A stretch of 22,317 bases of DNA from IMG/VR virus record IMGVR_UViG_3300003852_000071, positions 1-22,317 of that record, one strand, 5' to 3'. The stretch comes from a virus. A model generated the notes under the pieces. That model was not told the origin of the DNA. It saw only the letters and a list, made by a program, of their open reading frames with translations, and searched no databases. This document shows, one piece after another, positions 1,426 to 22,101 of the stretch. Position numbers and translations under genes: made by a program. Within the stretch, counting starts at the first letter, position 1; each line of letters begins with the position of its first letter.

Positions 1426-2187
1426 TTTTTTACCAGTAGTCCAATCGAGTTCACTGAATAAATCCTTGTAAGTATTTGTTGTTTGTTTAGATGGTATTTG
1501 AATTGGCTTTTTTAATCCTTGAATATTATCAAAAGTATTTGTTTTATTTTCAAATTGGTTTTTTGGTTTATTATTTTCTTCTTGTGATAATTTTTGAGAT
1601 AATATTTCACTAAAATCATTTTCAAAATTTGGAGCTTTTTCACTATATACGTTTTCTATGGTAATTTTTTTATCTCCAATTGAAGCTAAATCGCGTGAAT
1701 CGTTATAATCAACATTACTCATTGAGCTGTCTTTGCTATTACCTTTAATTCTTTTTAAAGCTTTTTCAGCTTCAGTTAAAGTATTATCTTCTTCAACATT
1801 AGAAGTCACTTCATGGCTACTATCATATTCTAATATTTCATTTTGATAAATTTTAAATGATTCATCATCTAAAGCTAATATTTTTTGAAGTTCAAGATCC
1901 TTATCTTCTGGCTCTATTATGTTTTTATTAAGAGACATATTAATTAATTTCATCGCATTTTTCATTTTAATGTCTTTAATAGTATTATCAATATTAAATC
2001 CTGAAAAAGTTTCTATAGTATTTTCAGAATTATTTTTCACTTCTTCAGTTTTTGTTATTTGTGGAGTAGTTGGAGCAATTACGGTTTGAATATCATCTAT
2101 ATATTTTTTACTCTTTAAATTTAATTTAAAATTATTAATTTTAGGTTCACTCTTAATAAATTTAATCTTCAACCTCTTCACCCTCAT
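1423..2187 (-). CDS. Hypothetical Lys/Asn/Glu-rich protein, possible scaffold component
   Basis: The product is about 254 residues and highly polar, with long stretches of Lys, Asn, Glu, Ser and Asp, no membrane segment and no recognised domain. A short predicted helical block (KNAMKLINMSLNKNIIEPED) lies near residues 75-95, and the C-terminus is a compact motif ending ELDWTTGKK. The gene overlaps the end of its upstream neighbour by 26 bases in another frame. The start is uncertain. The ATG at 2187 has only a weak AAAGGA close to it, while a TTG at 2172 sits about 8 bases after GAGGG and would give MKIKFIKSEP. The N-terminal VKRLKIKFIKSE resembles the RLIKSE element of the 545-residue modular protein. 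A polar coiled-coil-like protein between protease and capsid genes is where a scaffold is expected, but no sequence feature proves it. Confidence 0.55.
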   Translation of the reverse strand: MRVKRLKIKFIKSEPKINNFKLNLKSKKYIDDIQTVIAPTTPQITKTEEVKNNSENTIETFSGFNIDNTIKDIKMKNAMKLINMSLNKNIIEPEDKDLELQKILALDDESFKIYQNEILEYDSSHEVTSNVEEDNTLTEAEKALKRIKGNSKDSSMSNVDYNDSRDLASIGDKKITIENVYSEKAPNFENDFSEILSQKLSQEENNKPKNQFENKTNTFDNIQGLKKPIQIPSKQTTNTYKDLFSELDWTTGKK

Positions 2188-2662
2188 TTCCTTTAGATTT
2201 ATCTTTTACATTTTTTTCTGGATTTTTTTCTCTTTTATCAACTGGTTTTTCTTCGGATTCTTCCTCTTCAGGTTTTTCTTCAGTAGGTTTTTCTTCAATA
2301 TTTTCATCTGGAGTTTTTTCTGTTTGATTTTCAGGAATAGATTCTTCACTATTTTGAGGTAAATTTTCTGGACCATTTTCAACTTCCTGAGCTTGATCAT
2401 TATATTCTTGAGTTATATCAATATTTTCTATATCGAAAACTACTGAATATATTAACCCAGCTGCTTGGTCTAATATTTTTTTCTTTTGAATAATTTTTTG
2501 TGCTAAATGTTGATCATTTGCTAATAAGCGAGTAGTTTGTTCTACTGTAAATTTATAATCTTCAATAGATTTTAACACTTCTCTTCCCTTAGAACTTAAT
2601 TGACTTAAAGTATTTTCAAATGTGTTTATATTCATAATAGATTTTTTAACTAGTCTTTTCAT
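2162..2662 (-). CDS. Hypothetical protein with Glu/Pro/Lys low-complexity tail
   Basis: This 166-residue protein starts MKRLVKKSIMN behind TGAGGTG (spacing about 6). Residues 11-85 look helical (LSQLSSKGREVLKSIEDYKF and following), with leucine spacing suitable for a coiled coil. From about residue 90 to the end it becomes a low-complexity tail built on EKP/EEKP/ENP units ending GEEVED. The N-terminal KRLVK is nearly identical to that of the ParB-like protein starting at 19554 (MKRLVKISS), although the rest is unrelated. That makes it an example of the shared basic N-terminal motif discussed in the findings. The gene opens a new segment after a hairpin at 2689-2719 and overlaps the next gene by 26 bases. 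Function is unknown; together with its neighbour it could be part of the scaffold or an internal head protein. Confidence 0.65.
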   Translation of the reverse strand: MKRLVKKSIMNINTFENTLSQLSSKGREVLKSIEDYKFTVEQTTRLLANDQHLAQKIIQKKKILDQAAGLIYSVVFDIENIDITQEYNDQAQEVENGPENLPQNSEESIPENQTEKTPDENIEEKPTEEKPEEEESEEKPVDKREKNPEKNVKDKSKGNEGEEVED

Positions 2663-3821: not shown

Positions 3822-4727
3822 TTAATTCCAAGGCAAATCTTTAAGATTATTTTTAATATTTTCTACTTTACCTTTAAAAGTTCTACAATTTATTTCATTA
3901 ATAACTTTTTCATTATCAATATTTTTTTTATTTTCTATAAATATTTTTTCACTTTGTAATCTTTTATTAGCTACTTTTTCTAATACTTTAGCACTTCTAT
4001 CAGCTGGAGTTCCTACAAATGAGTCTTCGAAAAAATCTATCTCTCGATTATCTTCAAATACTGGTAATCCATTAAATATACTACCTTTGTGTTTTGAAAT
4101 ATGATCACAAAAATCATCTTCAGTGACTGCTTTATTTTGACAAATAGAACAAATAGAATATCCACATCTACAACCCATTGATGTACTATCAATATAACCT
4201 AATTGAATTGCCCTAGCTAATTCTGGATAAGCCTTTTTATCAATTGCTTTTAATAATTCTACAAATTTTCCACGTTCATTATAAACAGCATCTAATATAA
4301 TTCCACGCGCATTTTCCACGTTTTCATTATTGTGATCTACAAAAACAGCTTTTCCAATAAAAGTTTTATATTTGTCAACTAACTCTTCATGAGTAAAAAA
4401 ATCTCCATTGTCGTTAGCTCCTCTGCAAACTTTAGCCCATTTTTCGAAATTTTTATAAAATTCTTCCATTGGAATTAATTCAGCATTTCCACTTTCATCA
4501 TCAATAACATTACCAGCTGAAACAGCTCTATTACGAATATAAAGAAAATCATCTTCTTTCGGAGCAATTTTAACTACTTTTGCTGTCTTAATTCTTGGAG
4601 ATATTTCTAATGTCTTAGACTCTTTTAAAATATTAAAATCAGGAGCTATATTAGAAAATAATATAATTTCTCCATTATTTTCACTAAAATCTTCTATTTT
4701 AAAAGTAGTATTAGTTTTAATTAACAT
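3822..4727 (-). CDS. Putative capsid maturation (prohead) serine protease
   Basis: Start: the ATG at 4727 lies about 7 bases after TTGGAGGTAG; the TTG at 4742 overlaps that site and is not the start. Length is about 301 residues. The core runs from about residue 120 to 245. FIGKAVFVDHNN (His at about 132) and YIDSTSMGCRCGYS (Ser at about 183) match the His and Ser segments of the head maturation proteases of tailed phages (herpes protease-like fold). VGTPADRSAKV near residue 240 fits the end of that domain. Between Ser and the C-terminus lies a Cys/His cluster (CRC, CSIC, FCDHIS) that could hold a zinc ion. It follows the portal and one other gene, the usual protease position. The C-terminal 55 residues are polar and include NKRLQSE, so the protein may process itself. 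Expected role: cutting scaffold and capsid precursors during head expansion. Confidence 0.65.
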   Translation of the reverse strand: MLIKTNTTFKIEDFSENNGEIILFSNIAPDFNILKESKTLEISPRIKTAKVVKIAPKEDDFLYIRNRAVSAGNVIDDESGNAELIPMEEFYKNFEKWAKVCRGANDNGDFFTHEELVDKYKTFIGKAVFVDHNNENVENARGIILDAVYNERGKFVELLKAIDKKAYPELARAIQLGYIDSTSMGCRCGYSICSICQNKAVTEDDFCDHISKHKGSIFNGLPVFEDNREIDFFEDSFVGTPADRSAKVLEKVANKRLQSEKIFIENKKNIDNEKVINEINCRTFKGKVENIKNNLKDLPWN

Positions 4728-4742
4728 TTTAACTACCTCCAA

Positions 4743-5843
4743 TTATTTATTCTTTAATCTAGATGTTTTAACTAATAAACCTTTAGCTATTAACAATTCT
4801 TTAGTTCTTTCTTTCCAAGCTTCCCAATTTTCTTGAGATTCTTCAAGAGAAGATATATCATCATAGCTTCCATTCTCAATATCTTGAACTAAATTATATA
4901 AAACTTCATTTGCTGGAACTAATGGTAAAGCGGCCATTAATTCTTTAGCTGTGACAAAAGCCATACTTGATTGTTGAGCTTTTGTTCTTGATCCAGAAGG
5001 TTCTGATGTTATATGTTGGTTAACTTCTTCATGCATCATAGGAGAAACATGATTAGCAACTTTTTTTAATCTACTTATTTTTTTACTCTCAACTTCTTTA
5101 TCTTCTTCTTTATCTTCCTTTTTATTTTCCTTTATACTTTTTTCTAAATATTTTATTGCTTGATCAAATTCTTTTAAAATTTTTGCTTCTCCATCAATTT
5201 TTACTTCATAATCAGGTCCTTCATCTGTAAAAACTTTTGAAAATTGATAAGATATATCATTATATTTAAATTTAAATCCACCCCATATTTTTTTAAATTC
5301 ATCCATATCTACTTTATCTATTTTTCCTAAATCTTTAACTTTAGCTAATTTTAGTCTACTTTTTTTAAAAACATTATTACTTTCTTTATTTTTAATTTTT
5401 TCTAAAAATGTAGTAATTTTATCTATATCATTTTCACCTAATTTATCAATTACATTATTTACAACGGTTTCACTTACTTCAAATTCTTCAGCTAATATCT
5501 TAACACAGTCTTCTCTGCCTTCAAACCCGTTTAATTCATACATATCACCTTTACTCACTTTAATACCACCCTCTATTTGTTTTTCTGTTATTTTTTCTTT
5601 TAAATAATTTAATGCTTCTTCATAATTTAAAAATTCTTTTTTCATATTATTGATTTTTACTATATATTTAATTTTATTTTTTGAATCCTCAGAATAATGT
5701 AATAAAAATAAATATATGTTATTTTTATACTCAAATTTAAATGAAGTAAAAATTTTTCTAAGATCATTTATAAATTCCTCAATATCATTAATTTCTTCTA
5801 TTTTATTTAAATCATAAATTGAAGCTATTTTTAATTTGCTCAT
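4743..5843 (-). CDS. Hypothetical protein with internal duplication, bounded by S(R/K)LK motifs
   Basis: The ATG at 5843 lies 9 bases after AGAGGTG; a GTG at 5855 is part of that site. The 366-residue product begins MSKLKIASIYDLNKIEE. A second copy of this domain starts near residue 160 (KSRLKLAKVKDLGKID). The pairs FKFEYKNNIYLF / FKFKYNDISYQF and YEEALNYLKEKI / FDQAIKYLEKSI align through both copies, about 85 residues each. Between them, residues 96-155 form a small helical UBA-like segment (CVKILAEEFEVSETVVNNVI). A third part starts at SRLKKVANHVS (about 257) and ends with TSRLKNK. Thus four S(R/K)LK elements sit at the N-terminus, both internal boundaries and the C-terminus. It lies between portal and protease, so a head or scaffold-associated role is likely, but no function can be named. 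Confidence 0.7.
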   Translation of the reverse strand: MSKLKIASIYDLNKIEEINDIEEFINDLRKIFTSFKFEYKNNIYLFLLHYSEDSKNKIKYIVKINNMKKEFLNYEEALNYLKEKITEKQIEGGIKVSKGDMYELNGFEGREDCVKILAEEFEVSETVVNNVIDKLGENDIDKITTFLEKIKNKESNNVFKKSRLKLAKVKDLGKIDKVDMDEFKKIWGGFKFKYNDISYQFSKVFTDEGPDYEVKIDGEAKILKEFDQAIKYLEKSIKENKKEDKEEDKEVESKKISRLKKVANHVSPMMHEEVNQHITSEPSGSRTKAQQSSMAFVTAKELMAALPLVPANEVLYNLVQDIENGSYDDISSLEESQENWEAWKERTKELLIAKGLLVKTSRLKNK

Positions 5844-5876
5844 ATTAATTTTCACCTCTAAATTAAAATATTTTTA

Positions 5877-9666: not shown

Positions 9667-9942
9667 TTATTTTTTCTTTAATCTTTTTAATTTACCTGAT
9701 CTTAAAGACCACTCATTATTATCAACTGGTTTTTCAAATTCCCATTCCCTTGATATATTTTCATTATAGGTTTCGTTTTTAAATTTATTCTTATTAACTA
9801 TTTTTTCGTCAAAATCAGGAAATATTATACTCATTTGAATTCCATTAGGAGAAGTTATGCCTTGATTTTCATTCCCATTAGCATTCTCATTATAGTCTGA
9901 TGTCTCAAAATTAGCTACGTGATTCTTTTTTAACCTAGACAT
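9667..9942 (-). CDS. Small polar protein flanked by SRLKK / KRLKKK motifs
   Basis: The ATG at 9942 follows TAGGAGGATAACT, which also contains the stop of the upstream gene, so the two are coupled. The 91-residue product starts MSRLKKNHVANFE and ends GKLKRLKKK; between them lies an Asn/Glu-rich, probably disordered stretch with a short hydrophobic patch (IQMSIIFPDFDE). No domain is visible. It is the plainest example of the shared motif: the same basic RLKK element stands at both ends of an otherwise unrelated polypeptide. This would suit a peptide liberated by processing, or a linker carrying two docking signals. Function is unknown. Confidence 0.6.
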   Translation of the reverse strand: MSRLKKNHVANFETSDYNENANGNENQGITSPNGIQMSIIFPDFDEKIVNKNKFKNETYNENISREWEFEKPVDNNEWSLRSGKLKRLKKK

Positions 9943-13306: not shown

Positions 13307-14176
13307 TTATAGTTTTTTTTTTAAGCGACTTCCTCTATACCAACCATTACCATCTAGACGTGTCTCATAATTATTTGGTGAAACGCTTACATCACTATTA
13401 AGATAATCTGTCGCATTATAACCAAATGGCCCATCAGAGCCCTTATTAACACCAATAGGATCTTTATTTCCACTCATAGTTTCTTCTGTTTTGTCTAACA
13501 CTATATCCGACATTTGCATATCATAATAAGGTTTAATATTTCCAGCTAATCTTGAAGCATATAGCGGTTTTTCTTGTATTAAAACAGGATAAACTTTATG
13601 ACCAGCTAAATCTAGAAATTTTGCTAATTCTATTTTCATTTTATTTGAATATCTTAATGTGAAGGCTTCAAAAAAGCTTTGAAGTTGTCCATCGGCTCCA
13701 TTCCATAAAGTTAAAATTTTATCAGCTAAATACCATGGTAGCATTTGCATATTATCTGTTTCTTTTGCTGATTCCTTTGTTATTCCTTTTTTATTTGAAG
13801 CCCATTGCTTAAAATCATATGGGTCAATTTGATAACCTTTTAAATAATCATTCATAGAAGGATCTGTCAATTCATCACCATCATCTTCCCAATTTAAATC
13901 ACTTTTAAATTTATAATTATCTGGATCTCTTATTTCATTATTTAAACCTAGATTTTTAGCTAATTTACTTTTTTTAGTTTCCATTTTATCAATTTTTAAT
14001 CCATCAATTTGCTGTTTGGCTTCTTCTAAAGTTTCACAGCCATCATATTCTATTTCATTATCTTTTGTATATACATAAAATTCTCCCAATTTATAATCAG
14101 GAATATCTTTCTTTTTAACATCCATATCAATAACTTGCTTTATAATATATCCTTGATAACTCATGATTGTTTTCAT
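13307..14176 (-). CDS. Hypothetical virion-associated protein with SKLAK / SRLAG / SRLKKK motifs
   Basis: The ATG at 14176 lies 8 bases after GGAGG; the product is 289 residues. Residues 1-65 form a small alpha/beta domain (YQGYIIKQVID, then GEFYVYTKDNEIEYDGCETL) that ends in KKSKLAKNLGL (70-76). Residues 80-205 are mainly helical (PWYLADKILTLWNGADGQLQ, then MKIELAKFLDLAGHKVYPVL). YASRLAGNIKPYY follows at 206-218, and the protein ends GSRLKKKL. The three S(R/K)L elements therefore separate domain-like blocks and close the protein. The last codons are TTA AAA AAA AAA CTA TAA, a slippery A10 that puts -1 ribosomes into the 13268 frame. It is preceded by a strong ribosome binding site. Function is unknown; placement suggests a virion component. 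Confidence 0.65.
   Translation of the reverse strand: MKTIMSYQGYIIKQVIDMDVKKKDIPDYKLGEFYVYTKDNEIEYDGCETLEEAKQQIDGLKIDKMETKKSKLAKNLGLNNEIRDPDNYKFKSDLNWEDDGDELTDPSMNDYLKGYQIDPYDFKQWASNKKGITKESAKETDNMQMLPWYLADKILTLWNGADGQLQSFFEAFTLRYSNKMKIELAKFLDLAGHKVYPVLIQEKPLYASRLAGNIKPYYDMQMSDIVLDKTEETMSGNKDPIGVNKGSDGPFGYNATDYLNSDVSVSPNNYETRLDGNGWYRGSRLKKKL
13313..13322 (-). promoter_or_regulatory. Candidate -1 ribosomal frameshift site (A10)
   Basis: Ten A on the coding (minus) strand, inside the SRLKKK end of the upstream gene, lie two codons before its TAA. The -1 frame runs open into the next gene, which has no ribosome binding site. The geometry matches the site at 8447-8456. Confidence 0.5.
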
Positions 14177-15394: not shown

Positions 15395-16618
15395 TTATTT
15401 AGGTAATATTTGTACAAATTGAATTTTATCTTTCGAGAAATATTTTTTAGCAAATTCTTTTATATCTTCTATTTTTATATTATTTATTCCTTCTATGTAG
15501 TTTTCATAATCCAAATCATTAATTATACATTCACATATTATTGTATTTTTACCGGAAGTTCTCTCCTGACATAAAGCATAAGTTCCCTTAATGTATCTTT
15601 TAATAAAGTCTAATTTTTCTTCATCTACTAATTCATTTTGTAATTTTAATAATTCATCAATAATTATTTTTTTAACTTTTTTAATATTTTTCTGGTCTAA
15701 TCCTGCATAACCATATAATGTGCTTGTGTCTCCTAAGTTCATTACATTTGTATAAACAGTATATACTAATCCCATTTGTTCTCTAATTATTTGATATAAT
15801 ATTGAACTAGAATTACCACCTAATAATGTTGATATAATATCTAAAATATATATTTCATCCGTATTTGGTTTTGGACCAAATAATCCCCAACATAAATGAG
15901 ATTGTGCAATTTCTCTTTTTTCAATAATTTCCTTATAATCTGTATCAATTTTAAATTCTAAGTCAATTTTTTGTATAGGAGATTTTTTAAAATCTATATC
16001 TTTACAAAAATCTTCTATAAATTCAACTATTTCATCATGATTAATATTACCCGTAGCTACTATTACAATATTATTAGGATTATAATTTTGGTCAATAAAA
16101 TCAATTATTTGTTCATGTTTTATTTTAGATACAGTTTTATTTGTTCCGCCTACTAACTGTCTATTAATATAATTTTTATTTAATTGAGTCATTAATAAGT
16201 CAAATACTTTACCTGATGGGTCATCTTCACACATCTTTAATTCTTCTAATATTACTTGTTTTTCTTTAGAAAATTCATCTTCAGGAATAGTGTTGAACCA
16301 TACAATATCTGATAAAACATCTAAACCTATTTTCCAATATTCATAAGGAACAGTACAATAATATTTAGTATAATTAAAAAAAGTTTCAGCGTTTAAAAGT
16401 CCACCAAAATTTTCTATATCCCAATTTATTTTATCAGAAGTACGATTTAACGTTCCCTTAAATAACATATGCTCTGTAAAGTGTGCAATCCCTAAATTGT
16501 CTTTATCTTCATTAAAAGAACCACATTTTACTAAATATGCTAAAGTAGCTGTAGGAGCATTACTATCTAATAAAGTTATTATTTTTATTCCATTATCTAA
16601 AATACTTTCTTTATACAT
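15395..16618 (-). CDS. M16 family zinc peptidase (processing peptidase-like)
   Basis: The preferred start is the ATG at 16618 (MYKESILDNGIK), 6 bases after ATGAGG; the ATG at 16630 lacks a spaced site. Length is 408 residues, the size of a single-chain M16B enzyme such as bacterial YmxG or the mitochondrial processing peptidase subunits. The inverted zinc motif HFTEH is at residues 46-50 and the third ligand Glu about 75 residues later (EKQVILEEL, about 126), so it looks active. NAETFFNYTKYYCTVP and the C-terminal half with ILYQIIREQMGLVYTVYTNV are standard for the family. No signal peptide is present, so it should act in the cytoplasm or inside particles. M16 enzymes cut short basic signals, often with Arg at -2 or -3. 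Position between a subtilase and a sigma factor in a head cluster is unusual for a phage. Confidence 0.9.
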   Translation of the reverse strand: MYKESILDNGIKIITLLDSNAPTATLAYLVKCGSFNEDKDNLGIAHFTEHMLFKGTLNRTSDKINWDIENFGGLLNAETFFNYTKYYCTVPYEYWKIGLDVLSDIVWFNTIPEDEFSKEKQVILEELKMCEDDPSGKVFDLLMTQLNKNYINRQLVGGTNKTVSKIKHEQIIDFIDQNYNPNNIVIVATGNINHDEIVEFIEDFCKDIDFKKSPIQKIDLEFKIDTDYKEIIEKREIAQSHLCWGLFGPKPNTDEIYILDIISTLLGGNSSSILYQIIREQMGLVYTVYTNVMNLGDTSTLYGYAGLDQKNIKKVKKIIIDELLKLQNELVDEEKLDFIKRYIKGTYALCQERTSGKNTIICECIINDLDYENYIEGINNIKIEDIKEFAKKYFSKDKIQFVQILPK

Positions 16619-16688
16619 CATAATCCTCATTTCAAGTTATTATTTTTATATATTATAGTTAAAAATAAAAAAATTATTAAATATTTTG

Positions 16689-16773: not shown

Positions 16774-17487
16774 TTAAACGCTATATTGTTCTTTCAAAAT
16801 TTTGTAAATATCGTCTTTTTTTAATAATTTTCTATTAATAAGTAAATTTTTAGATTGTAATAAAGCTACTATTCCAGTGACATAAGCACAAGAGAATGAT
16901 GAACCAGAGTTTTTATTAAAAGAGTTATAAAGATAAGTGCTCAAAATATTGTTTCCAGGGACTATAATATCTCTTATATTTCTATATATATTTGAGCAAC
17001 TGATTACTTCAGGGTGAACTGCAGGATAATCTGGTATATCCCCATTATTATTGGCAGCTATTACTATTATTCCATATTTATTCATTTTCTTTATTATTGC
17101 ATAAATTGATTCATTATACTGTTGATAAGCTAAACTCATTGAAACAATATTAATTCCATTTTGTAAACACCACATTAATCCTTGTTTAATCCATTCTTCT
17201 GAACCTATTCCGGCATCATTAACAACTTTAACTGAATAAATTTCAGAATTAGGAGCTACTCCATCCGTGCTTTTACTTCCTATTATTCCAGCACAAAATG
17301 TTCCATGACCATATCTATCTATATAATTATTACTATTTTTATTTGTAAAATTAATTCCACCTTTAACACAATCCCTAAGATTGTCATGAGTATAATCAAT
17401 TCCGGTGTCTAATATGGCAATTTTAATTCCTTCTCCTTTTGTATATTTCCATAATTGAGAAATATTTAATAATTTAAAATTACTCAT
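16774..17487 (-). CDS. Compact intracellular-type subtilase (S8 peptidase)
   Basis: The ATG at 17487 (MSNFKLLNISQLWKY) lies 9 bases after GAGG; an ATG at 17496 is too close to it. The 237-residue protein is a bare catalytic domain. Asp is in AILDTGIDYTHDN (about 27), His in DRYGHGTFCAGII (about 61), the oxyanion Asn in VIAANNNGD (about 147) and Ser in SGSSFSCAYVTGI (about 197). All four are intact. No signal peptide or long propeptide is present, only about 15 residues before the first strand, as in intracellular subtilisins, so it should work inside the cell or virion. It overlaps the modular ParB-like protein gene by 8 bases (ATGAGTAA), so the two are made together. It may process that protein or head proteins; subtilases often favour basic sites. 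Confidence 0.9.
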   Translation of the reverse strand: MSNFKLLNISQLWKYTKGEGIKIAILDTGIDYTHDNLRDCVKGGINFTNKNSNNYIDRYGHGTFCAGIIGSKSTDGVAPNSEIYSVKVVNDAGIGSEEWIKQGLMWCLQNGINIVSMSLAYQQYNESIYAIIKKMNKYGIIVIAANNNGDIPDYPAVHPEVISCSNIYRNIRDIIVPGNNILSTYLYNSFNKNSGSSFSCAYVTGIVALLQSKNLLINRKLLKKDDIYKILKEQYSV

Positions 17488-19117
17488 TTTCCTCATCCTC
17501 TTTAAAATTATCTTCTTCTAATTCTTCTGGATAATAACCAGGATATAAAAATGATATTGGATTTACATGTACTCCGAAGGGATCATATTCTTTATTTTTT
17601 GCTAATCTACTTGTTTGCAACAATTCTTGTTTTTTTAAATCATCTATAGAATAAAAAGTTTTTCCTTCATGTCCAACACTATCCGTTGTGTAATAAATTT
17701 CTATAGGTGTGTCATTTAAATTTCTAATTTGAGATAATTTGCTTTCATATTTAATTATTAAATTTATAATTTCATTAAAAGAATAGTTATAATGAGCATC
17801 AAAAAACCAGCGTCTGTAATCTACGGAAAATCTAAAAGCATTTCTATTAATTTTTGGATTTTCATCATGAAGTAAACTTCCTCCCCATACATACATGGTT
17901 CCATCATCTTCTATAATTCCTCTAATAGATTTAAAAGTTTCTTTTTTTCTTGCAGATTCTATTTCACTAGATGTTGGATTTTTGAAAATTTCATAATAAC
18001 TATCATATTTATCTTTATATCCATCATAAAATTCTGATTTAATTAATCTACTATTAACTAATAATTTTTCATTTTTAAATTTTTTCTCTTCATCTTGTAA
18101 TTCTCTATCTAAATCTCCTATTTTGTTTCCTAATTCATCCATTTTTCTTTTAAATTCTTTATATTCTTTTTTAAATTTAACATCATCAAATGATTTATCT
18201 AATAATTCATTAAATTTTGGAAACATAGATTGGTATTCTTGTGACATTTTATTTAATTTTTCTATTTTTTCTTTCGCATATTCTTCCCAAGAAGAATTAA
18301 CATTTTTATCTTTATGCACCATTTTTGTAATTTTTGCTGGAACATTAGATAAATTTAAAGTTTTAACTACTGAAACCCGATGATTTCCATCTGAACTAGG
18401 AAAAAATTTCCCATCTGGAGTCTCGGTTAATGGGATAGGGTCTATTTTATCTCCATTTTTATAACCCTCATATAATCTTAACCAACGTGCATCATTAGGA
18501 TTTTTTGGAGACCAATCATCATTATATTCATCTACTCTCCCATCTCCTAACCCAATAATATCTGATACATTTATATTTTTAATGCCAATATCAATTAAAT
18601 CATAATCAGAAATATCATAATAATTTTGCAAAATTGGTAAATTAGCTTTTTTGAGTCTACCCGCTTCTACTAATTCTTTATTTAAAAAATCATTTAGAGT
18701 AATATATAAAATGCCTCTCTCTCCATTTGAAAATCCAAAAGCTGACATTTCAGCATTTATATCTCCAATTTTATCTAAAAAATTTAAATTATTTTCTAAT
18801 ATTTTTTTAAATTCTTCTCTAGAAATATCTGCTCCTAAATATGCTAAATCAAACATCCATTTCCCATCATAGACAAATCTAAAATAATTAGTTGGAACTT
18901 TATTTTCTAAAAAACTATTAACATGGAAATGGTCTATAACATATCCATCCCAAATATATTTATCTCCATTTTTGTCTATTACTCCTCGAATACAATTGTC
19001 TTGCTTCCAAATTAAATCTATTTCACTTTGACTTGGATTTTTAAATACCTCATAATAATTATTAGATTTTTTAAATGCATCATAAATTTCGCTCTTAATT
19101 AACCTATTTATCTTCAA
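17480..19117 (-). CDS. Modular protein: duplicated domain around a ParB-like domain, separated by RLxK motifs
   Basis: The TTG start at 19117 lies 8 bases after AGGTG; the product is 545 residues. Order: NRLIKSE (4-10), domain A (about 10-150), GRLKKAN (153-159), ParB-like domain (about 160-265) with SSDGNHRVSVVKTLN, a charged coiled coil (about 275-352), SRLIKSE (356-362), second copy of domain A (about 362-500), SRLAKNK (503-509), then a Pro/acidic tail. The A copies align: EIYDAFKKSNNYYEVFKNPS with EFYDGYKDKYDSYYEIFKNP, then IRGVID..GDKYIWDG with IRGIIE..GTMYVWGG. The ParB-like fold with GNHR usually binds a nucleotide or DNA. The layout recalls the 'polyvalent' multidomain proteins of phages that enter the host with DNA. 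It is followed with overlap by the subtilase, a natural partner for cutting it. No exact function can be named. Confidence 0.75.
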   Translation of the reverse strand: MKINRLIKSEIYDAFKKSNNYYEVFKNPSQSEIDLIWKQDNCIRGVIDKNGDKYIWDGYVIDHFHVNSFLENKVPTNYFRFVYDGKWMFDLAYLGADISREEFKKILENNLNFLDKIGDINAEMSAFGFSNGERGILYITLNDFLNKELVEAGRLKKANLPILQNYYDISDYDLIDIGIKNINVSDIIGLGDGRVDEYNDDWSPKNPNDARWLRLYEGYKNGDKIDPIPLTETPDGKFFPSSDGNHRVSVVKTLNLSNVPAKITKMVHKDKNVNSSWEEYAKEKIEKLNKMSQEYQSMFPKFNELLDKSFDDVKFKKEYKEFKRKMDELGNKIGDLDRELQDEEKKFKNEKLLVNSRLIKSEFYDGYKDKYDSYYEIFKNPTSSEIESARKKETFKSIRGIIEDDGTMYVWGGSLLHDENPKINRNAFRFSVDYRRWFFDAHYNYSFNEIINLIIKYESKLSQIRNLNDTPIEIYYTTDSVGHEGKTFYSIDDLKKQELLQTSRLAKNKEYDPFGVHVNPISFLYPGYYPEELEEDNFKEDEENE

Positions 19118-19128
19118 TTAACATTCAC

Positions 19129-19554
19129 CTACTCATCAAAATATTTTTGTATTCTTTGAGAATTTCCAAAATATCTAATTTCAACAGGTATTTCTTTAAT
19201 TCCTAATTGAATACAAGCTTGTATTCTGTGATTTCCTTCTGCTATTTTTATATCTCCATTTTTATGTACAAAAATTAAAATTTTATATTTTATTCCATTT
19301 TGTTTAATATCATTTAAAAATTCGTTCCATTCTTTTTCAGGATAATGACCAAAATATTTATTTCCATTATTAGTATTCCATACACGCGTTTCCCCATTTT
19401 CTCCAGGAAAATCTTTTATATAATCTATATTAATAGTTCCAGTTAACCATCTTGTCACATGTCTTTCTTCAGCTTGCCAATTTGGTGATCCTTCATCTCT
19501 ATAATCTTCTATTACAGAATTTAATTTTGAAGATATTTTAACTAATCTTTTCAT
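19129..19554 (-). CDS. Small ParB/sulfiredoxin-like protein
   Basis: The ATG at 19554 follows TGAGGTGATTCA; the product is 141 residues. After the N-terminal MKRLVKISSKLNS come YRDEGSPNWQAEERHVTRWL, a central segment with a beta pattern (IKYKILIFVHKNGDIKIAEG) and NHRIQACIQLGIKEIPVEIR. IAEGNHRIQACIQLG is the glycine/His/Arg turn of ParB/sulfiredoxin-like domains that hold a nucleotide phosphate (compare DGNHRVSVVKTLN in the next gene). It is a single-domain version of the ParB-like part of the neighbour. The KRLVK start is shared with the unrelated protein at 2662. The stop TAG and the next TTG start are 12 bases apart, so the pair is one unit. Role unknown: DNA binding, CTP binding or a kinase-like activity are possible. 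Confidence 0.65.
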   Translation of the reverse strand: MKRLVKISSKLNSVIEDYRDEGSPNWQAEERHVTRWLTGTINIDYIKDFPGENGETRVWNTNNGNKYFGHYPEKEWNEFLNDIKQNGIKYKILIFVHKNGDIKIAEGNHRIQACIQLGIKEIPVEIRYFGNSQRIQKYFDE

Positions 19555-19617: not shown

Positions 19618-22101
19618 TTATGCTCCTCTATTAAACATTTTGCCCGAAGAAGCTCTAGGCATTTGCCTACTAGATCCATAAATAGCTGCAAAATTAGCAA
19701 GAACATCAGCACATGTAATATCGTCGTGTCCGCCTTGCGGAGCCATAATTATTTTATTTATTCCCATTCTTGTTTCAGATTCTAAATCTTTCCATTCTCC
19801 TACCATTTTATGGTAAAATCCATTCATATCACTACCAGCTGATTTTAAAAATAAATCTTTTGAAGGATATTTAAATCTGTCATAACTTAATTCATGTTTA
19901 AATTGTGAAAACATAATGTTTTTCATATTCATTCCAGAATTTGTATATGTATCTGAAGCATTAAATATTATCCCATGTAATTGAGTTAATCCATATTCCA
20001 TTTTAAGAGTTTGAACAACCGGGGCTCCACATCCAGTATAATCAGCAAAAATACTTGAAACATTAAATATTGGAGTTGGTCCTCCAAATAATTTTGCGAT
20101 ATATCTCATTTGATCTGGATAACTAGTTCCATGCAATTCTGTTCCCCATACTTTTTGTTTTTGTCCATTAGGAGCTATTCTTAGAACAGATATATGAGTA
20201 AAGTCGGCCCCTTCTGATTCTGAACCAGCAAAGTCAATTCCAGCAACGTATTTTTCTCCAATCATGCCGTGTGTAATCCATTCAAAATTACCATCAACTA
20301 ATTTATCCCATTCAGCCGATAATAAAAATTGTCCAGCTCCATCAATAAATTGCAACATATACTGTGTTTTAAAATCTTCTACGCTCATTTCTCCTTCAGA
20401 CCATAATTCGGGTCTTGTAGGAAACAATTCTTGTTTTAAAGATTTTGGCATTAAATTAAAAACGTATCTCGAATAAGGCCTTATTATTTCATGTGTAGGA
20501 TCATTATGGTCCGGTAAATATATTGGATCTAAAACCCATAATTGTGGACATTCAGTCCAATCTTTTCTAATACTATACCACTCAGAAGAAGCTTGTCCCT
20601 CTACAGAATCATAAAAATGATTTCTTGTTTTAGGTGTTCCTATTTTAATCATTTTGGCATTAGTATTATGTGTATAAATTCCATTTGCAATAAAATTATG
20701 AACTCCGGTAATAGTTAAATCATAAACTGATTGCTCTCCAGCATTCTCAATTAATTTTATTTTTTCAAATCTTAAATCCGAATCTAATAAATCTTTTTGA
20801 ATCTTATATTTATGATTTTTAAGTAATTCTACTCCTCTTTCTAATTCTAATTGCTTTTTTTTTGTAATAAATTTAATATTTTTTGCAAAGTTTTCAATAT
20901 TTTCTTTTCCTCTAATATTTAATACATAATATTTTTCAACTGCAGATTTAAATTTTATTTTTTTAATTTTTCTTGTTTGAATTTTTGAATGTATACCAAA
21001 TTTTAATAAAGCCAATTGAAGATCTTTTATAATTTCATAACTATTTTGAGTAAATGAAAGCATAATCTTTCTATTATCTTCAATATAAACTCCACCATCA
21101 GTATCAAATAATCCTCCAATTAATTCTGCTAATGATTCTTTTGTATAAGAGCTAAGATTATCTGGTAGTCTTTTATTACATTTAACTTGACCATAAATTC
21201 CAGCTTCTCTTAATATTGTGCTCATTCCACATATAGTTCCACCTTCAAATAATCTTCCATCTTCAGTTATATAAGATTCATATATATTAATTTTTAAATC
21301 TGGATAATTATCTTTAATATAATCCCATAATTCTTCATCAGCACTACTATATCCTACATTTTGTCTATCACCATATGTACCATCTCCTATTAGCATACCA
21401 GTAATTCTTGCATGAGGATTTAAGTATTTACCAAAAAAAGGTAATTCTCTTGGAACAGCAACTTGCATACCAATTTTTAAATTCTCTAATCTTTCCCACT
21501 TAGGAGTTCTTGTATCTCTAGGTTTAATTATTATAGGGTGATCAAATGTACCTTGCAATGTTCTTCCAGAATCCAATGTAATTTTCAATGTTGGATGAAT
21601 TCCAGTATTATGATAATCTTCAATAGGAGCTTCTATTAATTTAAAAGTAGTAGTATCAAGCGCCATAATAGTTTTTTGCTCTTGTTTTTCTACTAATTCT
21701 TGAATAGAAATCATTTCTCCAGAAGGTAGCGTTATTAAAGAAGAACCAATAATACATCCGCCGCCCATAGGAACAATACGCTCTGACCATGTGTAGTTAG
21801 TAATTTTTTGTGCTTCGTCAAGAATAATAACATCAAATGTTAAACCTTCTATGTTTGATTGGTCTGAACCAGACACAGCTTGGACAGAAGATTTATTAGA
21901 AGTTTCAATTTTTTGTTTATTACATCTTACTAATTTATTATTTAGTCTTTCTTCATTCATTTGGAAAAATATTGCTGTTCTTCCAACATTCATTTCAGCT
22001 TGCTGAATTTTTGGTGTAAATATTCCAATTCTCATGTTTGGATAATTATCTAATAAATATCCGACAATTGAAGCTATTGACTCAGTTTTACCGGCCTGAC
22101 G
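19618..22101 (-). CDS. terL: Terminase large subunit, 3' exon, containing an intein
   Basis: The packaging ATPase and nuclease. The frame begins at 22101, just after the group I intron, with RQAGKTES, the core of the Walker A motif (compare the RQLGKT type in T4-like terminases). It has no start codon here, because the first exon lies beyond the window; an in-frame ATG at 22035 is internal. Walker B is VIILDEAQ near residue 90-98. The intein follows at 20665-21756. Extein sequence resumes with TNAKMIKIGTP, the coupling motif. The nuclease domain has three acidic sites: YVAGIDFAGSESEGADFTH, IFADYTGCGAPVVQTL and PQGGHDDITCADVLA. Without the intein the visible part is about 463 residues, so only the adenine-binding start is missing. 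The stop TAA lies next to a strong terminator. Two self-splicing elements must both act to give an active enzyme. Confidence 0.95.
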   Translation of the reverse strand, partial: RQAGKTESIASIVGYLLDNYPNMRIGIFTPKIQQAEMNVGRTAIFFQMNEERLNNKLVRCNKQKIETSNKSSVQAVSGSDQSNIEGLTFDVIILDEAQKITNYTWSERIVPMGGGCIIGSSLITLPSGEMISIQELVEKQEQKTIMALDTTTFKLIEAPIEDYHNTGIHPTLKITLDSGRTLQGTFDHPIIIKPRDTRTPKWERLENLKIGMQVAVPRELPFFGKYLNPHARITGMLIGDGTYGDRQNVGYSSADEELWDYIKDNYPDLKINIYESYITEDGRLFEGGTICGMSTILREAGIYGQVKCNKRLPDNLSSYTKESLAELIGGLFDTDGGVYIEDNRKIMLSFTQNSYEIIKDLQLALLKFGIHSKIQTRKIKKIKFKSAVEKYYVLNIRGKENIENFAKNIKFITKKKQLELERGVELLKNHKYKIQKDLLDSDLRFEKIKLIENAGEQSVYDLTITGVHNFIANGIYTHNTNAKMIKIGTPKTRNHFYDSVEGQASSEWYSIRKDWTECPQLWVLDPIYLPDHNDPTHEIIRPYSRYVFNLMPKSLKQELFPTRPELWSEGEMSVEDFKTQYMLQFIDGAGQFLLSAEWDKLVDGNFEWITHGMIGEKYVAGIDFAGSESEGADFTHISVLRIAPNGQKQKVWGTELHGTSYPDQMRYIAKLFGGPTPIFNVSSIFADYTGCGAPVVQTLKMEYGLTQLHGIIFNASDTYTNSGMNMKNIMFSQFKHELSYDRFKYPSKDLFLKSAGSDMNGFYHKMVGEWKDLESETRMGINKIIMAPQGGHDDITCADVLANFAAIYGSSRQMPRASSGKMFNRGA
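20665..21756 (-). mobile_element. Intein with LAGLIDADG homing endonuclease inside the terminase
   Basis: It is 364 residues, inserted between GGG and TNAKM. It starts with Cys (CIIGSSLITLPSG, block A); block B is GTFDHPII with the usual Thr-x-x-His; the end is GVHNFIANGIYTHN (block F/G) followed by Thr as the +1 residue. All splice residues look intact. Two LAGLIDADG-type helices are visible: TGMLIGDGTYGD and LAELIGGLFDTDGGVY. The endonuclease part spans roughly 21430-20880. The insertion lies between Walker B and the GTP coupling motif. Extein joins give PMGGGTNAKMIKIGTP, a normal terminase sequence. Confidence 0.95.

Follow-up and report, generated by a model that had tools for sequence, protein, structure and literature searches.

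The end of a gene for a 545-aa protein, in which the motif RLxK stands at four places, is overlapped by the start of a subtilase gene. This arrangement raises the question of whether the neighbouring enzyme cleaves the 545-aa protein, as a polyprotein, at RLxK or whether the motif has another meaning. The stretch analysed here, referred to as the window, is a whole virus record of 22.3 kb in which all predicted genes sit on the minus strand. Their order is TerL, ParB-like protein, 545-aa protein, subtilase, M16 peptidase, sigma factor and, after further genes, portal. The portal is followed by a 370-aa protein, a prohead-protease-like protein, a 166-aa acidic protein and the decoration and capsid proteins.

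The window was compared with Bacillus (Lysinibacillus) phage G. Identities were 87% for the capsid protein, 73% for the portal, 61-82% for TerL, 44% for M16 and 61% for the sigma factor, and the order TerL-M16-sigma...portal...protease...capsid was common to both. The identities and the shared gene order indicate that the window, to judge by its sequence, is part of the genome of a giant phage like phage G, that is, of a relative of phage G of Donellivirus type. The comparison set consisted of complete phage G and of G2 (IMGVR 3300039191_000589), G3 (3300010163_000005), G4 (3300042923_001459) and G19 (3300043105_000311). The contigs G16 and G18, which are without the head module and have dozens of genes in common with phage G, were added, and G5, a 218-kb phage bearing M16, was used as a control. 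ORFs were called mechanically, and a few starts are possibly wrong. Exact-peptide scans for close relatives of the 545-aa protein or of the portal gave none.

The TerL gene of the window (19618-22035, minus strand) is interrupted by a LAGLIDADG intein. With 550-560 aa, the TerL homologues of phage G, G2 and G4 have an ordinary length, and the G3 ORF is far longer (1245 aa). The first residue of the window ORF corresponds to residue 112 in phage G, and the N-terminal part is accordingly either absent or encoded in a different frame close to the end of the contig.

A fusion of tag-bearing modules next to a subtilase gene

The features of the locus are as follows.

19129..19554 (-): ParB-like 141-aa protein with the N-terminal tag MKRLVK, from a profile and motif scan
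17483..19117 (-): 545-aa four-tag modular protein with a TTG start (ORF 17480-19117), consisting of A1, ParB/Srx module with long helix, A2 and acidic tail
19094..19105 (-): RLxK tag 1, NRLIKSE, residue 5, N-terminal, from the motif scan
18647..19105 (-): domain A1 including leading and trailing tag, residues 5-157, from the duplication
18647..18658 (-): RLxK tag 2, GRLKKA, residue 154, equal to the tag MKKRLLKK at the N-terminus of phage G gp57
18050..18658 (-): gp57-like ParB/sulfiredoxin-fold module and helical segment, residues 154-356, 34% identical to gp57
18038..18049 (-): RLxK tag 3, SRLIKSE, residue 357, from the motif scan
17597..18049 (-): domain A2 including leading and trailing tag, residues 357-507, from the duplication
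17597..17608 (-): RLxK tag 4, SRLAKN, residue 504, from the motif scan
16774..17487 (-): subtilase (S8) without propeptide (ORF 16774-17496), from a triad alignment; its start overlaps the 545-aa gene
15395..16630 (-): M16 zinc peptidase with HFTEH, syntenic with phage G gp2 and found in all head-module relatives examined

The original prediction had given the coordinates and strand of both ORFs correctly, and the RLxK elements, which it had placed at about residues 5, 154, 357 and 504, were found at exactly these positions. Only 0.17 such motifs were expected in a protein of this kind, and four were never reached in 20,000 shuffles. The duplicated domain that had been proposed was recovered as an alignment of 35% identity across 162 residues (E = 1e-22). 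This alignment spans the leading RLIKSE as well as the trailing RL[KA]K, so the trailing motif does form part of the duplicated unit. The middle domain, described as ParB-like, is homologous to phage G gp57 and has the ParB/sulfiredoxin fold. Foldseek matched it to sulfiredoxin, Noc and ParB with a probability of 1.00, yet with a best E of 7.6e-3, and the GNHR motif is conserved. A long predicted helix (313-364) comes after this fold.

As modelled by AlphaFold from a shallow alignment, the 545-aa protein had a mean pLDDT of 58, and all four RLxK were located in segments below pLDDT 50 between better-predicted modules. Domain A modelled alone (pLDDT 50) was uninterpretable. No convincing relatives of domain A beyond the 545-aa protein were found in viral contigs, bacterial and archaeal genomes, phage records, PHROGs or the PDB; weak matches in MT835730 and PMBT37 were rejected on inspection. 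The beads-on-a-string anatomy proposed for the protein was confirmed: RLxK marks the module borders, and the border at residue 154 falls where gp57, a protein of its own in phage G, begins. A repeated border motif between folded modules, as looked for in a viral polyprotein, is present. The 545-aa protein is a fusion of tag-bearing modules, namely A1, the gp57-like ParB/Srx module and A2.

The subtilase matched the profile PF00082 (E = 1e-29), and its Asp/His/Ser triad is intact in the alignment with the Bacillus intracellular serine protease 7y6m (E = 7e-29). It is thus predicted to be a catalytically intact intracellular-type S8 protease. The overlap of 8 bases between its start and the end of the 545-aa gene, claimed earlier, is given by the second ATG (17487), ATGAGTAA; from the first ATG of the ORF the overlap would be 17 bases. 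The second ATG is the better start because the ribosome-binding site AAAGAGG lies nine bases upstream of it. The subtilase and the 545-aa protein may be made together, as proposed earlier from this overlap, although gene overlaps are common in the window (4 of 25 junctions). A reading of the subtilase as part of a defence system was rejected, as only generic subtilase/IetS models matched and the context is a head module.

A peptide tag of phage G-like giant phages

Among the 26 window proteins, the motifs SRL and RLxK were counted 11 and 10 times, where 1.0 and 1.65 occurrences were expected, respectively; they stood mostly at protein ends. The sites include starts (MKRLVKKS, MSRLKKN, MKRLVKIS), ends (GSRLKKKL, TSRLKNK, KRLKKK) and internal borders. 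In phage G, RLxK was present within the first 12 residues of 32 of the 724 ORFs, compared with expectations of 2.7 when whole proteins were shuffled and 3.4 when only the first 30 residues were. This enrichment at phage G N-termini is about 10-fold, and the look-alikes KLxK and RIxK were enriched weakly or not at all. Eight N-terminal RLxK were counted in each of G2, G3, G4 and G19 (0.5-0.9 expected), nine in G16 and six in G18; the control G5 had three, with 1.3-1.5 expected. At distant M16 loci no enrichment was detected (RLxK 2.8 per 10^4 at N-termini and 2.7 inside).

The 77 N-terminal tags gave a sharp consensus, M-[KS]-R-L-[IVKL]-K-[KA]-[SA]. The codons of the tag vary (AGA/AGG/CGC/CGT; TTA/CTA/CTC), with R, L and S all variable, which indicates selection on the protein and not on the DNA; a DNA-level motif was rejected for this reason. 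Most tags are located 2-10 residues from the start or end of their own protein, where cutting would separate no domains. A short conserved N-terminal peptide is common to non-homologous proteins, as in capsid targeting of the T4 type. In phage G-like giant phages, RLxK forms a short peptide tag that is transferable and stands at the N-terminus or sometimes at the C-terminus. A description of the tag was not found in the literature searched, a set outside which the main phage G virion paper lay, and its newness is provisional. The phage G proteome was reportedly published by Gonzalez in 2020.

Further tagged proteins, and the untagged prohead protease, are listed below.

13316..13327 (-): C-terminal tag GSRLKKKL of a 289-aa protein, kept in phage G gp5 (NTRLKKK) and in G4 (NRLKKK)
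9667..9942 (-): 91-aa protein with tags at both ends (MSRLKK... and KRLKKK), like its G4 homologue
4743..5855 (-): 370-aa protein, the second multi-tag protein, with a duplicated domain (E = 9e-11) and a gp17-like module
3822..4742 (-): untagged protein resembling prohead (head maturation) proteases, with homologues of 54-64% identity in all relatives
2162..2662 (-): 166-aa acidic-tailed core or scaffold candidate with the tag MKRLVKKS, adjoining the prohead protease and the capsid protein
L053:988-3543 (-) and L053:4044-6206 (-): tandem-GNAT proteins of G4 with RLxK linkers between GNAT acetyltransferase modules

The 166-aa core candidate and its five homologues were all tagged (six phages), and no terminal tag was found on the capsid, decoration, portal, sigma, M16 or prohead protease proteins of the six head modules. 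The tag was frequent in the ART-like proteins of phage G, which were assigned by the HGT motif and weak PARP-type Pfam matches: six of the seven were tagged, compared with 53 of 724 ORFs overall in this looser test (p = 8e-7). A GNAT, a SLOG-family, a nucleoside deoxyribosyltransferase-like and a ParB-like protein of phage G were tagged as well, and so were several proteins without predicted function. Among the tagged phage G proteins are gp9, gp10, gp17, gp20, gp38, gp53, gp56, gp57, gp123, gp126, gp141 and gp675. Adjacent paralogous ART-like ORFs at phage G 401788-402885 comprise one that is tagged (FLKRLLKTSS...YHGTS) and one that is untagged (MVLLEKVYHGTS). The window head-module genes of 289 aa and 116 aa, which are neighbours, are fused in G3 (G3_98991_100190) and G19 (G19_101891_103339), in ORFs that come from phages in L061 and L202; the G3 fusion begins with MNRLIKR and has KRLKRKKK just before the junction.

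Internal positions equivalent to the N-terminus of a homologue were examined by a scripted count. Junctions retained RLx[KR] in 6 of 10 cases with an N-terminally tagged homologue and in 3 of 148 with an untagged one (p = 8e-7, with related proteins not fully independent). SRLKK at residue 262 of the 370-aa protein corresponds to the gp17 N-terminus MKRLIKK, SRLTKK at residue 62 of a 284-aa G2 protein to the N-terminus MKRLIKK of its paralogue, and TRLKK at residue 76 of a 273-aa G4 protein to SRLKK of gp20. The 370-aa protein also has tags at residue 167 and at its C-terminus (SRLKNK), and its duplicated domain starts with S[KR]LK[IL]A. The two G4 proteins, 851 aa and 720 aa long, are built from tandem GNAT modules with all five RLxK in the linkers, and their single-module homologue in phage G begins with MKRLIKAS. 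The tags persist between modules that are only about 30-35% identical. When tagged proteins fuse, the tag is kept at each module border.

Processing site or address label

In the window, G2 and G4 the subtilase is encoded between TerL and M16, and in G4 it directly follows TerL without an adjoining modular protein. It is absent from complete phage G, which has about 30 tagged proteins. In G3, where tags and an intact TerL-M16 region are present, a Pfam search detected no subtilase, and in G19, also with tags, the window subtilase used as query gave no match. The fact that tags occur without the subtilase makes processing by this enzyme unlikely, and the proposal that it is the cognate protease of a 545-aa polyprotein was not supported. 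The subtilase is optional at the locus and not required for the tag; its absence from phage G led us to reject it as a necessary partner. The 61-aa ORF upstream of the G2 subtilase (L046:5658-5843(+); G2 44458-44643) contains two MKRLIKK-type motifs and overlaps the subtilase gene as well as the tagged gene for the 284-aa protein. All six head modules have kept the M16 peptidase at the position that separates the sigma factor from the TerL region.

The gene overlap and the intact triad fit a 545-aa polyprotein cut at RLxK by the coupled subtilase, and the tags of the two genes immediately preceding the subtilase in G2 (284 aa and 61 aa) leave a small chance of a functional link. Against these stand the subtilase-free tagged genomes, the G4 arrangement and the terminal position of most tags, and we consider this explanation improbable. 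Cleavage at RLxK by a conserved phage protease, either the prohead protease or M16, would make the multi-tag proteins polyproteins and the terminal tags propeptides. Both enzymes are encoded in all six head modules, and internal tags match the N-termini of separate homologues. Relatives of M16 such as the mitochondrial processing peptidase remove basic N-terminal peptides with an Arg near the cut. However, M16 phages beyond the lineage were without tag enrichment, for which M16 was rejected as a sufficient partner, and C-terminal tags such as SRLKKK would release nothing. The phage G capsid protein has 282 aa, and 255 aa when mature as determined by N-terminal sequencing (PMC5646251), which would place the cut after residue 27, GRVALA/QAMANP. 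This site does not resemble RLxK, and hence recognition of the tag by the prohead protease is not obvious. T4 signals both target proteins and are cleaved (PMC9026906), and processing by a conserved protease is an unlikely but appreciable possibility.

A localisation or binding signal apart from the capsid, for the nucleoid, membrane, a chaperone or the replication site, would suit a tag that is short and basic with one conserved Leu. It is doubtful, however, since the head-core candidate between the protease and capsid genes was tagged in six of six phages, effector-type enzymes were tagged, and no tagged annotated replication enzyme was seen among the phage G tables compared. It is very improbable that RLxK arose as a by-product of N-termini that are AT-rich and basic, or that it is a neutral leftover from duplication. 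The window genome has about 25% GC and duplication carried tags along, but the shuffles of the first 30 residues, which keep composition, fell far short of the observed count, KLxK and RIxK were not comparably enriched, and the tags were kept between strongly diverged modules.

Capsid targeting is favoured over these explanations: on balance, and by little more than an even chance, the tag most likely serves to address proteins for packing into the virus head. The core candidate and effector-type proteins carry it and shell proteins do not, a split that resembles the pattern of the T4 capsid-targeting sequence, and it is from this pattern that we infer packaging of the tagged proteins into the head. 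The tag would bind the assembling prohead core, as the T4 sequence does; proteins so bound would be enclosed in the head and would subsequently enter the host by ejection. A C-terminal position, as some of the tags have, is not usual for a signal of the T4 type. A more far-reaching reading is speculative and, in our view, rather unlikely. It holds that phage G and its relatives may possess about 30 address-labelled, head-packaged and injected proteins (ADP-ribosyltransferases, GNATs, SLOG/NAD enzymes and ParB-like proteins), some of them multi-tag polyproteins cut at the tags in the head by a lineage-specific protease, be it M16, the prohead protease or the optional subtilase.

Phage G is the largest laboratory-grown phage, and for most of its genes no function has been assigned. 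Should the tag serve as a packaging signal, sequence alone would reveal proteins that travel in the head and are likely injected, including an ADP-ribosyltransferase-like family, and proteins of choice could be loaded into a very large capsid with the tag as a ready-made address label. For the multi-tag fusions, the question arises of whether each is packaged intact with its several labels or is divided into its units.

Relation to known systems

The window subtilase resembles the Bacillus intracellular subtilisin in its alignment and intact triad but is shorter. The head propeptides of SPN3US and phiKZ are N-terminal peptides on internal head proteins and are cut after Glu (A-x-E in SPN3US; PMC10052503). 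They likewise belong to giant phages, but they are mostly 111-254 residues long, whereas the phage G-type tag has about 8 residues and is basic. In phage P1, an N-terminal signal of DarB is enough for packaging (PMC9024508). The phage G-type tag would similarly address proteins to the capsid, but it is found on about 30 proteins, whereas the P1 signal was described for DarB.

The closest resemblance in pattern is to the capsid-targeting sequence of T4, which is carried by Alt, an ADP-ribosyltransferase, and by internal proteins, and which is read by the core and then cut (PMC9026906; PMC5694885); the first 10 residues of IPIII suffice as a targeting signal (PMC9026906). In both cases a short N-terminal peptide is found on otherwise unrelated proteins, those of T4 (IPI-III, Alt) including an ADP-ribosyltransferase and core proteins. 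The phage G-type tag differs from the T4 signal in sequence, is found also at C-termini and internal module borders, and shows no cut of the gp21 type (L-x-E in T4).
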